Below, piece after piece: positions 16,408-35,468 of a stretch of 35,746 nt of DNA (the stretch's first letter is position 1; each line of letters opens with the position of its first letter). Both the position numbers and the translations under genes were made by a program. Where the stretch lies: assembly GCA_001823155.1 (NCBI GenBank), contig MHTR01000013.1:1-35746 (forward strand), given 5' to 3'. Source of the DNA: Candidatus Wildermuthbacteria bacterium RIFCSPHIGHO2_01_FULL_48_25 (GTDB lineage: Bacteria; Patescibacteriota; Minisyncoccia; Minisyncoccales; UBA10102). The notes under the pieces were generated by a model. The model worked only from the letters and a program-made list of their open reading frames with translations. It made no database searches and was not told the origin of the DNA.

Positions 16408-17730
16408 TTACTCTGCGAGGATTGCAGCTCCCGCGACCGTATCAAGAGCACCATGGATGAGTACCTCGGGAGCTGGTCTTGCGTCCCAATTACCACCCAA
16501 GGCTATCCACTCCTTCCTTTTCGGACTGTATCCGAAAAAGATGCGGAAGATGTAGTTATAGGGCTTACCTTTGATGCGCATGCGCATGGGCGGGATGAAG
16601 GGTTGTATATACGCCCCCTCGGGAGACTGTATCCGAGCCAAGACTTGCCTTTTCTTGACTTCGGACTTCTCACCAGGCTTCCAGATGACAACACCCCGAG
16701 TCTTGCTCCCTTGAAACGGTTTTATGCAGAACCCCTCCTCCCATGGAAGCTGTTCTGGATTTCTTGCGACTTCCTGTGGAGCGAGCGCCTTCCACAAACC
16801 GAGAGCGCGACCATAGGATTTCAAGCCCTTGGTTGCAACCGTGCTGACGGAACGAGAAACGAGGGCATGAAACGACAGCTCATCTGGATCTGCCCTCACA
16901 AGGACAAGCCTGTTTCCCTTAAGAACTTCGCTGTGGGATATTTCGGGAATCCACAGATGGTCGTCTCCCCCGTGCTTGGCGCGCCGCGGCGACACCACCA
17001 CAAAAAACTCAGGCCATTCCTTTTGGAGCTCAGAAAGAAGCGTTCTGAATTGTTGATTCAGTGTCAGGGTTATTCCTACTCCGGCGGGGCGCTCTTCGAT
17101 CTCGTACACTCCGAGGCCCGTGCCTTTGCGCCAGACACAATCCAATCGCACCAGAAGACTTGGAACTCCAAATTTCTCCTGCGCGAATGTTCCTTCCCCT
17201 GGAAAAACCTTCTGCCACTCCGAAAGGAGACCAAGGCATTCCGCTGTTGCTTCCTTACTCACAGATACGGTGCGAGAAAGGGTCTGCACAACCCACGGCT
17301 GATGCCAGGGTTTGCCAAAAAGCATGGTCTTGAAAAACCCTCCGCCAGTTTCTGGTGCCCATTGATCGACAAGATCGCGGGGCATGACGAGCAGATCGAA
17401 AAGCGTAGGACAGTCCCCATCAACTGTGGGACAGGAAGTAATCATCCCTTTGCCCTTGCGGATCTCCCACGTAAACACCGAGGGGAAGCGCCGCTCGATC
17501 TCCTTCCAAAACTCGATATTCCGAGGCTGCTCTTTATTAGGCTTAAGTTGTTGAGGCAGATGGAGTAACCCTTCCTGGCATCCGCATTTTGCCAGCATCG
17601 CTTTGCTCCACTTGCCGGCGCTCTGAACCCCATCCCAGCCCCAGCTTCTGCGTAGCTCGTTCAGCTTCTCCAGCTTCTCGGACATGGCACGACCCTGCGC
17701 GCGATACTCTTCATATGCCGAAGCATACAT
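16408..17730 (-). CDS. Circularly permuted ATP-grasp-like protein (440 aa), unknown substrate
   Basis: No close relative recognised by name. Residues 195-220 (LLVRLDCVWRKGTGLGVYEI then EERPAGVG) resemble the metal-binding strand with acidic residues followed by RPxG of ATP-grasp enzymes. Residues 334-350 (FCIKPFQGSKTRGVVIW) resemble the lysine and glycine-rich nucleotide loop, followed by AYIQPFIPP (373-381), YIFRIFFGY and ALGGNWDARPAPEVLIHG. The acidic motif preceding the nucleotide loop is the order found in circularly permuted ATP-grasp families. Such enzymes ligate carboxylates to amines. The gene is monocistronic, has an AAGGAGA Shine-Dalgarno, a long structured leader with an attenuator, and a strong terminator. 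A 371-codon antisense ORF is only a shadow. Function is inference. Confidence 0.6.
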   Translation of the reverse strand: MYASAYEEYRAQGRAMSEKLEKLNELRRSWGWDGVQSAGKWSKAMLAKCGCQEGLLHLPQQLKPNKEQPRNIEFWKEIERRFPSVFTWEIRKGKGMITSCPTVDGDCPTLFDLLVMPRDLVDQWAPETGGGFFKTMLFGKPWHQPWVVQTLSRTVSVSKEATAECLGLLSEWQKVFPGEGTFAQEKFGVPSLLVRLDCVWRKGTGLGVYEIEERPAGVGITLTLNQQFRTLLSELQKEWPEFFVVVSPRRAKHGGDDHLWIPEISHSEVLKGNRLVLVRADPDELSFHALVSRSVSTVATKGLKSYGRALGLWKALAPQEVARNPEQLPWEEGFCIKPFQGSKTRGVVIWKPGEKSEVKKRQVLARIQSPEGAYIQPFIPPMRMRIKGKPYNYIFRIFFGYSPKRKEWIALGGNWDARPAPEVLIHGALDTVAGAAILAE

Positions 17731-17757
17731 GGAAACTTCTCCTTGTAATGTGCTTCA

Positions 17758-17820
17758 GGCCAGCTTTCAATTTTCTGGCCTGGAGTGCCGGGGGTACTAG
17801 TCTCCCCGGCGCTCCAAGCC
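17758..17820 (-). promoter_or_regulatory. Nested hairpins between attenuator and ATP-grasp-like gene
   Basis: A large hairpin (17777-17820) pairs TGGAGTGCCGGGG with CCCCGGCGCTCCA (one G-T wobble), enclosed by GGC/GCC. A second one pairs GGCCAG (17758-17763) with CTGGCC (17775-17780) and shares bases with the base of the first, so the two may alternate just ahead of the Shine-Dalgarno. Confidence 0.6.
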
Positions 17821-17835
17821 ACTAGTACTGCATTT

Positions 17836-17874
17836 AAAAACAAACAGCCGCCTCTTTTGGAGAGGCTGGCTGTT
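17836..17874 (-). terminator. Attenuator terminator upstream of the ATP-grasp-like gene
   Basis: AACAGCC/GGCTGTT plus GCCTCT/AGAGGC with one bulged A, loop CCAAA, then TGTTTTT. The left arm AACAGCCAGCCTCT is complementary over 14 nt (one G-T wobble) to AGAGGCTGGTTGTT at 17919-17932 within the leader ORF, giving an antiterminator as long as the terminator. Confidence 0.85.
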
Positions 17875-17903
17875 TTGAATCTATAGAAAATCCCTCTGAA
17901 AAT

Positions 17904-17987
17904 CTATACGAACAACATAACAACCAGCCTCTTGAGAGCGGCGCACCATGCGTGCATATACCTTCTTGTGCTGGTTATACTTGTCAT
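17904..17987 (-). CDS. Putative leader peptide (27 aa) of the ATP-grasp-like gene
   Basis: ATG 17985-17987, TAG 17904-17906. Begins MTSITSTRRYMHAWC, followed by AALKRLVVMLFV. The ATG is 10 nt after the -10 box, hence practically leaderless. Segment 1 (AACCAGC, 17970-17976, codons 4-6) pairs with segment 2 (GCTGGTT, 17922-17928); segment 2 extended (17919-17932, codons 19-23) pairs with segment 3, the terminator left arm. Between segments 1 and 2 lie codons for Arg, Arg, Tyr, Met, His, Trp and Cys, one each of several scarce amino acids. This fits a sensor of general charging rather than of one amino acid (inference). Confidence 0.65.
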   Translation of the reverse strand: MTSITSTRRYMHAWCAALKRLVVMLFV

Positions 17988-17997
17988 ACCAGTGTCT

Positions 17998-18025
17998 ATT
18001 TTACACACCCCCAAAACCTTGTCAA
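17998..18025 (-). promoter_or_regulatory. Promoter of the ATP-grasp-like gene leader
   Basis: Minus-strand TTGACA (18020-18025), 16-nt spacer, TAAAAT (17998-18003). Confidence 0.75.
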
Positions 18026-18047
18026 TGGCTGGGCTCTTGTGGAACCA

Positions 18048-18070
18048 CTTTACACCCCCGGGGTGTAAAG
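18048..18070. terminator. Palindrome behind metG
   Basis: CTTTACACCCC, single central C, GGGGTGTAAAG: perfect 11-bp arms, 10 nt after the metG stop codon. No T tract on the minus strand, so termination strength is doubtful; it belongs with the other short palindromes. Confidence 0.6.
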
Positions 18071-18079
18071 TCGGGTGTT

Positions 18080-19510
18080 TTATTTCCTTGGGAAAAGAGA
18101 CTCGCCCTTGCCTTCCTGGAGTTGTTTCAAAATCTTTTCTGAAGTCTCTGGCAGAAAGGGTTTGAGGAGGTTTGCTATTTCACCAAGCGCAAACAGCAAG
18201 TTGCCGATCACTTCTGGTTTTGGAGAAGCCCAGGGCTTTTCGTATTCGATATATTTATCACACCAAGAAATAGCGTACCAAATTGCTTCTAATGCCTCAC
18301 TGAAACGAAAATTATCTAGATAATCCTCAACAAAGTGATTTTTTCTTTCTCTAAAGAATTTAGTAAATTCTTGATCCGCACCCTTTAAGGAGTAAGGGGG
18401 TTTAAGGCTATTGTTCCTTTGAGCTAAAGATAAAACTCTTGACACTAAGTTTCCCAGTCCGTTTGCCAAATCAGAATTATATCGCTCTTTGAACTTTTCT
18501 TCGGTAAAATCCCCGTCTTCAAAGGGTGGGATTTCGCGCAGGAGGTAGTACCGCACCGCGTCGGTCCCATATTTCTCTACTAACGCGAACGGGTCTACCA
18601 CATTTCCGAGAGATTTAGACATCTTCTGCCCTTCCACGGTGATAAAACCATGGACGAAAATCGTCTTTGGTAAATCTATCTTTAGAGCGCGAAGAATCGC
18701 AGGCCAAATAACTGCGTGGAAACGCAGGATGTCTTTGCCGATGATATGGATATTTGCTGGCCAGTATTTCTTAAACTTCTGTCCGTCGGGGTATCCAAGA
18801 GCTGATATATAATTCACTAGAGCCTCTAACCAGACGTACACAACCTGTGTATCGTCCCCGGGAACCGGGATACCCCACTGAAGTTTTTCTTTGGGACGGG
18901 AAACGCTGATAAGTATCGGCTCACTCTCTATGAACTGAAGGACTTCTTTCTTTTTGGTTTCCGGTACGATTTGCAACTCACCCTTTTCTATCTTTTCCTT
19001 AAGCGGAAATGTATATTTATGCAGATGAAAGAACCAATTCTCTTCCGCAATTTTCTCAGGCTCCTTCTTATGGATAGAGCATTTGCCCTCAACTAACTCC
19101 TTTTCCGTAATAAATGCCTCGCATCCTGAACAGTATAGCCCCTCATATGCTTTCTTCTCCAAGTCCATATTCTCCTGAAGTTTCTTCCAAACCTCCCTTA
19201 CTGCAGGCCAGTGACGTTCTTGGTCTGTAGTACGGATAAAGTCATCGTTGGAAATCCGTAGGGCTCTCATGAGTTCCCGAAACCGACTCGAGATGTGATC
19301 GGTAAATTCCTGAGGGGGCACACCGGCCTCAGCTGCGGTTCTTGCCACCTTGATGCCATGTTCATCGGTCCCAGTCAAAAAGAAGACATCCTCGCCTTTC
19401 TGACGATGCCATCTCGCTATTACATCGGCCTGAACGATTTCTAACGCAAATCCTATATGGGGATTCGCATTAGTATAGGGTAGTGAGGAAGTAAGATAGT
19501 ACGTCTGCAT
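18080..19510 (-). CDS. metG: Methionyl-tRNA synthetase
   Basis: 476 aa. Charges tRNA-Met, including the initiator. N-terminus MQTYYLTSSLPYTNANPHIGFA carries the HIGH motif; TGTDEHGIKV, a zinc-binding CSGCEAFITEKELVEGKCSIH, IHIIGKDILRFHAVIWPA and KMSKSLGNVVDP are canonical. The C-terminal EMAP-like tRNA-binding domain is absent, as in many minimal genomes. It starts 4 nt after the stop of the LAGLIDADG gene; its Shine-Dalgarno (AAGGTAGGG) is formed by the last codons of that gene, indicating translational coupling. Last gene of the glyQS-M16-AI2E-rsmI-endonuclease-metG strand. Confidence 0.97.
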   Translation of the reverse strand: MQTYYLTSSLPYTNANPHIGFALEIVQADVIARWHRQKGEDVFFLTGTDEHGIKVARTAAEAGVPPQEFTDHISSRFRELMRALRISNDDFIRTTDQERHWPAVREVWKKLQENMDLEKKAYEGLYCSGCEAFITEKELVEGKCSIHKKEPEKIAEENWFFHLHKYTFPLKEKIEKGELQIVPETKKKEVLQFIESEPILISVSRPKEKLQWGIPVPGDDTQVVYVWLEALVNYISALGYPDGQKFKKYWPANIHIIGKDILRFHAVIWPAILRALKIDLPKTIFVHGFITVEGQKMSKSLGNVVDPFALVEKYGTDAVRYYLLREIPPFEDGDFTEEKFKERYNSDLANGLGNLVSRVLSLAQRNNSLKPPYSLKGADQEFTKFFRERKNHFVEDYLDNFRFSEALEAIWYAISWCDKYIEYEKPWASPKPEVIGNLLFALGEIANLLKPFLPETSEKILKQLQEGKGESLFPRK

Positions 19511-19514
19511 AGCC

Positions 19515-20771
19515 CTACCTTAATCGCAAAGTCACATTCTGTAAAGCGGCGTTTAAGTCGTTTCTTCGTTTTTCATGTCGTAAAAACGGACCAAGCGCGT
19601 TCAGTAATTTATAGAGATCCTCTCTTGTGTTGACACTAACTCCCCAGAAGGTTCCATTATGCCTTACTCCTCTTTTATCAACGCCTGGTTTCGCTTCTAG
19701 AGAAAAAATGCTCGCAATACCCTGACGATGAAACTCTCGATGGATATCTTGCAAAATTCCGTAATCATATGACCTAATGCGAAACCTAGCACGCTTTGAA
19801 TAAATTCCAATATTGCCTTCTGCATCAGTATATCCGGCAAGGAATTGCAGGAAGAGCTTTCTACCCTTCTTAATCCATTGAGGAATTTTGTAATGTTTTG
19901 GTAAAAGAAACTTGAAAGAACGATTCAAGGCAAAGTTTATATGGAAACGTCCTTCCGCATCTTTTTTCGTAATCCACCCCGGGCCATAATCATTAAATAA
20001 CCTTCGTATAAGATCAAGCTGTACTGTCTTTGTGGTGCCACACCCTATATGAATAAGATTCCATTCTTTCCGAACGCCCAAATCCCCCAAACGAAACCCT
20101 ATGAGATATGCCTTTTCCTCTCTACTACCAGTAAAGTCTTTCTTTTTGTGTTTCGTACTTGTCTCAGATATTGTTCGGCGACTAATCCCATAATGTTCCA
20201 TCTTCCTTAAAATGGTGGCTGGCTGACAATCGTACAGTTGAGCAATTTTTGAAAGAGGATATCTTTTTTCTTTGTATAGTAAGGAAAGTTGAGTTTTACT
20301 GATTAAGACTACCTTCCTAGGACGCGTAGGGATACCATAAAGTTTCAGGTATTTATAAACAGTTTTGGGGTCGCAATGATATCTTGTGCCAATCTTATAT
20401 ATAGAAAGGTTGCTCTCGGAATAGAGAAGAGCAAGCATCTGTTTTGATAGTAAGACTCGTTTCTTTGGATGTCGTATAGAAATCCCATATTTCTTTAGGG
20501 TACGCAAAATAACAGTCTGATCACAATGATAAATTCGCCCAACTTTTTCTGCGGATAGTCCGCGTGTCAAATACAAATAAGATAGCGTATCCTTTTTTAT
20601 TCCAGCCCTCTTAGGGCCTGAAACCCTTCTCGGGATACCGTATTCTTTCATCCGGTTGACTATCGTCCCTGCGGTACAGTTGAAAAAATGAGCAATTTCA
20701 AAAGTTGTGTGCTTACTTTCCCAATAGAGCTTTCTAAGTTGTTTGGGGGAAATCAACAACCTTCTTCCCAT
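19515..20771 (-). CDS. Free-standing LAGLIDADG homing-endonuclease-like protein with four tandem HTH repeats
   Basis: 418 aa. Residues 6-48, 57-101, 107-150 and 154-198 are four copies of one helix-turn-helix unit (pattern LxxLYxxxxxSxxKIAxxYxCxxxTIxxxLKxYGIxxR). They are followed by two LAGLIDADG-type motifs: AYLIGFRLGDL (221-231) and LQFLAGYTDAEG (308-319), the latter with its acidic residue intact; in the first the usual acidic position is an Asp in RLGDLG. So it should be a single-chain, two-motif nuclease or a DNA-binding maturase-like relative with an unusually long recognition module. It lies between rsmI and metG, an adjacency otherwise seen in Firmicutes, and is not embedded in an intron or intein. 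Start ATG 20771 follows GGAGGA and a TATACT box by only a few nt. Confidence 0.85.
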   Translation of the reverse strand: MGRRLLISPKQLRKLYWESKHTTFEIAHFFNCTAGTIVNRMKEYGIPRRVSGPKRAGIKKDTLSYLYLTRGLSAEKVGRIYHCDQTVILRTLKKYGISIRHPKKRVLLSKQMLALLYSESNLSIYKIGTRYHCDPKTVYKYLKLYGIPTRPRKVVLISKTQLSLLYKEKRYPLSKIAQLYDCQPATILRKMEHYGISRRTISETSTKHKKKDFTGSREEKAYLIGFRLGDLGVRKEWNLIHIGCGTTKTVQLDLIRRLFNDYGPGWITKKDAEGRFHINFALNRSFKFLLPKHYKIPQWIKKGRKLFLQFLAGYTDAEGNIGIYSKRARFRIRSYDYGILQDIHREFHRQGIASIFSLEAKPGVDKRGVRHNGTFWGVSVNTREDLYKLLNALGPFLRHEKRRNDLNAALQNVTLRLR

Positions 20772-20826
20772 TCCTCCAGTATACCATATAATTCACTTAG
20801 GGAATAGCTGTTGCTATATAAACCCG

Positions 20827-21498
20827 TTACGGTCTTCCGACCACAACCACGAACTCTCCCTTTACCTTATCTTTCTGCAGCATTTCGAGCACCTGGTCAA
20901 TAGCACCGCGATACACGGTTTCAAACTTCTTGGTAAGTTCTCTCCCCACTACAGTTTGTAGTTGGTAGTTTATAGTTTTTAGTTCTTGGAGACTTTTTAA
21001 AATCCGGTACGGGGATTCATAAAAGATAACAGGGCGGGCAGATTGCGCCACTTCCTCGAAGAACTTCTTCCTTCCTTTTTTGTGCGGAGGGTACCCTAAG
21101 AACAGGAACTTATCCATGGGAAGGCCCGCTATGCTCGCGATCGCAGACACTGCTGACGCTCCTGGTATGGGAACAATGCTTAAAGAGGGCTTTCTTTCCA
21201 AAAGGTAATCAATGAGTTCGTTGCCTGGGTCTGACACGCCGGGAGTCCCCGCGTCTGTCACTAAAGCAAGACTTTTGCCTTGCGAGAGCAGCTCAAAGAC
21301 ATACTCTTTCGTTTTTTCGCTCGCGTGCTGGTGGTAGCTTATGGTGGGAACTTTAACTTCGTATCGCGAAAGCAGCTTTTGCGTTACTCTCGTGTCTTCG
21401 CAAAGAATAAAAGAAACTTCCTTGAGCGTTCTCAAGGCGCGCAGGGTGAGGTCTTCCAAGTTCCCAATGGGAGTGGCTACCACGAAAAGCGTAGCCAT
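20827..21498 (-). CDS. rsmI: 16S rRNA (cytidine-1402-2'-O)-methyltransferase RsmI
   Basis: 223 aa. SAM-dependent ribose methylation of C1402 in the decoding centre. Tetrapyrrole-methylase fold hallmarks: LFVVATPIGNLEDLTLRALR, ILCEDTRVTQKLL, YHQHASEKT, LVTDAGTPGVSDPG, IPGASAVSAIASIAGLP, FLGYPPHKKGRK and FYESPYRI. Somewhat shorter than the usual 280 aa because the small C-terminal domain is missing, as in many reduced genomes. Its ATG is 1 nt after the stop of the permease gene, so it is in the same operon. Confidence 0.96.
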   Translation of the reverse strand: MATLFVVATPIGNLEDLTLRALRTLKEVSFILCEDTRVTQKLLSRYEVKVPTISYHQHASEKTKEYVFELLSQGKSLALVTDAGTPGVSDPGNELIDYLLERKPSLSIVPIPGASAVSAIASIAGLPMDKFLFLGYPPHKKGRKKFFEEVAQSARPVIFYESPYRILKSLQELKTINYQLQTVVGRELTKKFETVYRGAIDQVLEMLQKDKVKGEFVVVVGRP

Positions 21499-34657: not shown

Positions 34658-35104
34658 ATGGCGGTATTTGGGGAAAACCGAAAGGCGCGCTTTGACTTTG
34701 AGATCCTGGAAAAGTTCCAGGGCGGCTTGGTATTGCAAGGCTCTGAAGTAAAAAGCATACGCCTAGGCAGAATACAGCTCGCCGGCTCCTTTGTGGGGCT
34801 CAAAAAAGGAGAGCTGTGGCTTATTGGAAGCACCATTCCTCCTTATCAGCCCAACAACACCCCTTCGTTCTACAACCAGAAGCGCGACCGCAAGCTACTG
34901 GTACAAAAGCGCGAATTGGCTACCTTGATAGGAAAGATAAAGGAGCGGGGGTTGACGCTCGTGCCCTTATCGGTGTATAGTACTGCTGCTGGAAGAATGA
35001 AGCTGGAATTCGCAGTGGGACGCTCTAAGAAAAAGTGGGATAAGCGGGAAATGCTCAAAAAACGGGAAACTGACCGCGAGATACAGAGAGTTATGCGGGG
35101 GTGA
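34658..35104 (+). CDS. smpB: SsrA-binding protein SmpB
   Basis: 148 aa. Partner of tmRNA in rescue of stalled ribosomes. Family hallmarks: VFGENRKARFDFEILEKFQG, GLVLQGSEVKSIRLGRIQL, ELWLIGSTIPPY, RDRKLLVQKRELATLIGKIKERGLTLVPLSVY, FAVGRSKKKWDKREMLKKRE and the basic C-terminal tail. Length is normal. Its TGA (35102-35104) lies inside the 5' acceptor arm of the tmRNA encoded immediately downstream on the same strand, so the two genes overlap by 8 nt. Confidence 0.96.
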   Translation: MAVFGENRKARFDFEILEKFQGGLVLQGSEVKSIRLGRIQLAGSFVGLKKGELWLIGSTIPPYQPNNTPSFYNQKRDRKLLVQKRELATLIGKIKERGLTLVPLSVYSTAAGRMKLEFAVGRSKKKWDKREMLKKRETDREIQRVMRG

Positions 35105-35452
35105 ACGTTTTGACAGGACCGTGAAGGAACCATAGGCAAGCCGAGCTTCTCGGACGCTCGCAAAACAACCGAGGGCACCAAAAATGCCAACATATTCGCC
35201 CCTCAGCGGGCACCTGCTTACGCATAAAAGCGTTTAAGCCATCTGACTCAGGCAACTCTCGATAGCTGAGCCGGGTGTCAAACAATCGAGAATCGGGACA
35301 GTTTCTGAAAAAACCCAGGGAGCTGTCCGTCAAGAAAGGGTTTAAGAGAGAAGGTTTTGCCCAGTTTACACTTCTCTCACTACCAACTGGGATACGCTTG
35401 TAGAATATGTTTCTGGACTTTTCTGGACGGGAGTTCAATCTCCCCACCTCCA
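35097..35452 (+). ncRNA. ssrA: tmRNA (SsrA), one-piece
   Basis: 5' GGGGGTG (35097-35103) pairs with CACCTCC (35445-35451), giving the universal G3-U70 wobble of alanylatable tmRNA. The T stem GGGAG/CTCCC (35429-35433, 35440-35444) is perfect, preceded by the TTCTGGACG typical of tmRNA 3' halves. The CCA tail is not encoded. The tag reading frame appears to resume at GCC 35186 and reads ANIFAPQRAPAYA before TAA (35225-35227), an Ala-rich protease-type tail. The T loop is TTCAAT, 6 nt, one shorter than normal. About 356 nt in all. Located between smpB and infC; the 5' end overlaps the smpB stop codon. Confidence 0.9.
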
Positions 35453-35468
35453 CACTTCGCTTCGCTCA

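Follow-up and report, generated by a model that had tools for sequence, protein, structure and literature searches.

A probable free-standing LAGLIDADG homing endonuclease with an array of HTH units lodged between rsmI and metG, and its relatives at the edges of conserved genes in CPR bacteria and DPANN archaea

The LAGLIDADG endonucleases of introns and inteins, such as I-DmoI, PI-PfuI and I-AniI, have a pseudo-dimeric fold and a pair of catalytic acids in common with the protein described here; unlike them, this protein is encoded outside any intron or intein and carries an N-terminal array of helix-turn-helix (HTH) units. An HTH is also combined with the LAGLIDADG fold in WhiA, a transcription factor that has lost the catalytic acids, whereas the present protein retains the acids and has its HTH units repeated at the N-terminus. 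In the mobile ORFs at the ends of fungal mitochondrial genes (e.g., Allomyces atp6), an endonuclease ORF is located at the gene end and the gene terminus is replaced; these elements are organellar, whereas the family considered here occupies mostly gene starts and many targets. The seg and mob endonucleases of T4 are likewise free-standing and intergenic between conserved genes, and are inherited with co-converted flanks, but they are GIY-YIG or HNH enzymes that cut hundreds to thousands of base pairs away (PMC2988022), whereas the present family resides in cellular genomes, in a flush position, with a target that would be adjacent. LAGLIDADG enzymes of CPR bacteria have been described in rRNA insertions (PMC11270868, PMC7143001, PMC11809585); they belong to the same nuclease superfamily and the same hosts but occupy insertions that are removed from the RNA, and PMC11270868 contains no mention of free-standing or HTH-bearing forms. 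LAGLIDADG homing endonucleases are already known, and the edge-lodged, HTH-array, multi-target form appears undescribed in the open literature, in which we found no description of it (most subscription papers fall outside that literature).

The window, that is, the entire stretch of 35,746 nucleotides analyzed here, comes from a Candidatus Wildermuthbacteria genome of 515 kb in 23 contigs that is 82.5% complete. An ORF of 418 amino acids that starts with ATG (19515-20771, minus strand) and that, judging from its motifs, fold and homologues, is a putative free-standing LAGLIDADG homing endonuclease gene, lies between rsmI, its upstream neighbour (20827-21498, minus strand; TIGR00096, 222 bits), and metG, encoding methionyl-tRNA synthetase (18080-19510, minus strand; TIGR00398, 453 bits, and PF09334). 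A 55-nt spacer (20772-20826) separates it from rsmI, and its 3' end abuts the metG start, with 4 nt left before the ATG. It is plausible that the metG ribosome-binding site lies within the last codons of the endonuclease gene, as the sequence-only reading had suggested: an AAGG at 19521-19518 (minus strand), 7 nt before the metG ATG, is a possible Shine-Dalgarno sequence. An intron- or intein-encoded endonuclease was considered and rejected, given that the gene is intergenic, the flanking genes are whole and an Rfam search of positions 16583-21010 of the window yielded no match. Elsewhere, the window contains a tmRNA gene (35097-35453, plus strand; tag APQRAPAYA) that overlaps a spurious 120-aa ORF.

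The C-terminal part of the protein (approximately residues 213-418; 19518-20135, minus strand; profile A1) is predicted to form a pseudo-dimeric LAGLIDADG nuclease domain. Its first motif, YLIGFRLGDL (residues 222-231; 20079-20108, minus strand), contains the acid D230, and the second, FLAGYTDAEG (residues 310-319; 19815-19844, minus strand), contains E318; the first position is occupied by D and the second by E or D in 91 of 91 homologues, so that both catalytic acids are retained throughout and the motifs are not degenerate. The top Foldseek matches of the AlphaFold2 model (mean pLDDT 93.7) include PI-PfuI, E-DreI and I-DmoI. The Pfam scores are below the curated cut-offs (19.5 bits against 23.1 for LAGLIDADG_1 and 18.7 against 22.5 for LAGLIDADG_3), so the assignment rests on motifs and fold. 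A full-length phmmer search of the 418-aa protein against the PDB gave no match, and a search for relatives with the single window protein found none; a domain alignment was needed to recover the homologues. The motifs, the acids and the modeled fold indicate that the protein is a member of the LAGLIDADG nuclease superfamily, and the earlier description of a free-standing protein with two motifs of this type is thereby confirmed.

The same reading had recognized four tandem HTH units, and these are borne out: the unit HMM detects them at residues 7-49 (20625-20753; E-value 7e-22; helices at 9-18, 23-29 and 34-44), 58-100 (20472-20600; 3e-18; helices at 60-69, 74-80 and 85-94), 108-150 (20322-20450; 1e-18; Pfam HTH_23 at 113-145) and 157-199 (20175-20303; 3e-18; Pfam HTH_7 at 151-191), all on the minus strand, and in the model they form four separate three-helix bundles that precede the nuclease. 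They were, however, wrongly taken to be near-identical, the pairwise identity among them being only 26-41%. Nor is there support for the suggestion that an array of four serves to recognize a long or repetitive target: one unit is present in 26 of the 28 endonucleases at lepA and three in all four at uvrA, and between 0 and 4 occur at the same metG start, so the number of units is not a simple measure of target length.

An HTH array of this kind also occurs with another nuclease. At the gatB start in L020, five such units are joined to a DUF559/Vsr-type nuclease; this fusion suggests that the array can move as a module. The ORF in question (L020:1165-2388, in the same place as L025:1489-2712) stops 21 nt before the gatB start; a search of the order for further relatives of this type produced, besides L020, only weak matches to DUF559-like proteins. 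Two other loci (L022:470-1345 and L023:242-847) encode one or two such HTH units followed by an unrecognized C-terminal domain (KxAGIMLYWxEG...), and in L022 the gene is directly downstream of a trmD-like gene.

The homologues form a set of 92 distinct sequences scoring above 100 bits, and a profile search traced the family to 80 named loci in CPR bacteria, DPANN archaea, Chloroflexi, Omnitrophota and other groups. Almost all of the loci are in metagenome-assembled genomes, for some of which the taxonomic label is doubtful; carriers are defined by a profile threshold, and a simple ORF rule served to call the neighbours. Sampling was by endonuclease sequence, so the neighbours were not selected for. 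On the 3' side, the neighbour is metG in 36 cases, lepA in 28, yebC in five, groL in five and uvrA in four, with iscU, ileS, alaS, leuD, miaB, gcvPA and hppA found once each. The edge involved is the start of metG, lepA, yebC, alaS, ileS, leuD, iscU and miaB, and the end of uvrA, groL, gcvPA and hppA; in all these targets, the 3' end of the endonuclease gene is the side that faces the conserved gene, and among the 92 homologues it nearly always touches the edge of that gene. The 3' gap is at most 20 nt in 76 of 85 cases (median -4), compared with 14 of 85 for the 5' gap (median 94), and the 5' neighbours vary. Overlaps of 4 nt with the starts of metG and lepA occur, some endonuclease ORFs extend a few codons antisense into uvrA, and the stop codon is often built from conserved codons of the target, e.g., from the ATTAGG (Ile-Arg) of lepA. 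At lepA, the stop lies -8 to +20 nt from the IRNF block, most often at +1, regardless of the position of the ATG; being the tighter of the two, the distance to the block was chosen over that to the ATG as the anchor. Two metagenome-assembled genomes (L090 and L091), whose metG genes are 67% identical, each carry a single additional base within the codons for the HIGH motif of the adjacent metG (CAT CTT T GGC CAC and CAT CTT C GGC CAC), with the remaining metG frame open; this could reflect either a programmed +1 shift or damage to metG.

Comparison of the 25 genomes of the host family supports the proposal of homing into an ancestral rsmI-metG junction. In seven of these (G016, G011, G008, G004, G018, G017 and G013), rsmI and metG abut, with gaps of at most 27 nt and without the gene. 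Far from being fixed at the locus, a homologue is present in only four of the 25 genomes, namely upstream of metG in the window, G007 and G020 and at the uvrA end in G006, and in 23 of the 247 genomes of the order; presence is patchy even inside one genus. In G020, about 5 kb of additional inserted sequence lies between the endonuclease gene and rsmI. This pattern is a presence/absence polymorphism with an empty ancestral site, as in mobile homing endonucleases. Elsewhere among the homologues, L142 and L121 are short or broken copies, a sign of decay. Carriage as phage cargo was rejected since only two fair viral homologues were found, neither at these genes. Upstream of metG, the non-carrier relatives L038, L037, L040, L042 and L039 share a TG[CA]TACAAGAAC element a few nucleotides before the ATG, preceded in four of them by a hairpin with a run of T and accompanied in four by a TTGGAA 17-18 nt before TACAAG; the arrangement resembles a terminator and, after it, a promoter that would yield a leaderless metG mRNA.

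In a tree of 88 nuclease domains, the endonucleases at lepA, yebC, groL and uvrA each form one clade (support 100/98, 100/99, 96/83 and 100/99, respectively), and those at metG have at least two origins. The metG-adjacent endonucleases of Wildermuthbacteria split into two clades, L001 and L080 versus L114, which implies repeated invasion of one junction. The endonuclease clades follow the target gene rather than the host. The endonucleases evolve under purifying selection, with a dN/dS of about 0.1 in pairs. In several pairs, they are closer to each other than the host genes are: in L110 and L163, they are 77% identical compared with 55% for LepA, and in L096 and L113 the dS is about 1.1 for the endonuclease versus 2.6 for lepA; the opposite pattern, with the host gene closer than the endonuclease, is seen in L109/L172, L134/L123 and L136/L132. 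The tree and these comparisons show an endonuclease history that is independent of the host gene and indicate horizontal spread.

The gene edges next to the endonucleases differ from those of non-carriers. In one Staskawiczbacteria genus, the lepA start reads IRNFVIIAHVDHGK in the carriers G210, G211 and G218, in place of the IRNF[CA]IIAHIDHGK of nine non-carriers, and the three are not sisters by the rest of lepA, in which G218 groups with G219 (support 1.0) and G211 with G212 (0.975). More widely, Ile is present at both altered positions in 2 of 28 carriers versus 39 of 43 non-carriers drawn from the class and the phylum (p 5e-13, in a test that ignores kinship). The altered codons, +7 and +10, sit 20-30 nt inside the junction, and the change tracks the endonuclease subclade (Leu/Val at +7 in 10/11; Val at +10 in 15/17). 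Within the first 45 nt, the rise in nucleotide identity among the three carriers ranks 13 of 220 trios, which is only suggestive of a nucleotide co-conversion tract. At metG, the first 20 codons (MQTYYLTSSLPYTNANPHIG; 19451-19510, minus strand), where carriers depart from FYITT, are the candidate location of the recognition site, and the window has YYLTS at this place. FYITT is found in 3 of 20 bacterial carriers versus 35 of 46 non-carriers of two families (p 5.5e-6) and 14 of 24 non-carriers class-wide (p 0.005), both tests again ignoring kinship; the signal is weaker than that at lepA, three carriers keeping FYITT and non-carriers varying class-wide too. In G079, a degenerate remnant comprising the last 58 codons of an endonuclease, with a stop inside (L021:1501-1674), directly precedes metG, the start of which is likewise altered (LYVST).

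The altered lepA start may protect carriers from cutting, and, more generally, the altered gene ends are probably an immune or poorly cut target that travels with the element. Alternatively, the element could home as proposed but the altered starts have nothing to do with immunity, following instead, as a by-product, from the new N-terminal context or from host phylogeny. Insertion does alter the first lepA residues, kinship is ignored in the carrier tests, and two non-carrier lepA loci, L331 and L341, bear the carrier-type start IRNFVIISHVDHGKST; these may be past carriers that lost an endonuclease. The variants, however, are located within the conserved IRNFxIIAHIDHGKST block, differ according to the endonuclease subclade and are shared by three carriers in one genus that are not sisters, so that we regard the by-product explanation as unlikely, if still a serious competitor.

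Less probable again, and in our view rather improbable, is intronless homing of the T4 type, in which the enzyme would cut at a distance in the neighbouring gene and the flush position would be merely a tolerated insertion point. There is a precedent in the intergenic free-standing endonucleases of T4, with their distant cut sites, but such cutting alone gives no fixed position against the conserved blocks of many unrelated genes and does not account for the lepA changes so close to the junction. A domesticated, WhiA-like DNA-binding regulator, combining the LAGLIDADG fold with HTH and acting on the adjoining gene through translational coupling or by repressing it, to which a Foldseek match to WhiA (8dy9, rank 40), the short overlaps with the metG and lepA starts and the purifying selection might point, is highly improbable considering the catalytic acids kept in all 91 homologues, the patchy presence even within a genus, and the tail-to-tail placement at the ends of uvrA, groL, gcvPA and hppA, which excludes operon coupling there.

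We consider it very likely that the gene in the window encodes a free-standing LAGLIDADG homing endonuclease, a member of a family lodged flush against the edges of conserved housekeeping genes. Under this proposal, the HTH array and the LAGLIDADG domain would jointly bind DNA at the metG start, and the nuclease would cut the allele that lacks the endonuclease gene. Recombinational repair from a carrier would then introduce the endonuclease gene along with the neighbouring first codons of metG in their recoded form, and the enzyme would no longer cut these codons well. The last codons of the endonuclease gene would supply or overlap the metG translation start, and the host gene remains whole, since the insertion ends at its edge. 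A broader scheme, which we put forward tentatively as a possibility that falls short of probable, is that of modular gene-edge meganucleases, in which an exchangeable array of 1-5 HTH units would aim different nucleases, including the DUF559/Vsr nuclease at the gatB start in L020, at the conserved ends of essential genes in bacteria and archaea, and each copy would bring with it a gene end that is recoded and immune.

Phages and organelles are well-documented settings of free-standing homing endonucleases; the family considered here is chromosomal and is found at the edges of about a dozen essential genes of CPR bacteria and DPANN archaea. If the proposal is correct, it shows how selfish nucleases can persist without introns, by stopping at a gene edge, supplying a translation start and carrying an altered target, and it would mean that, in these lineages, a parasite can shape the N-termini of essential proteins such as LepA and MetG.
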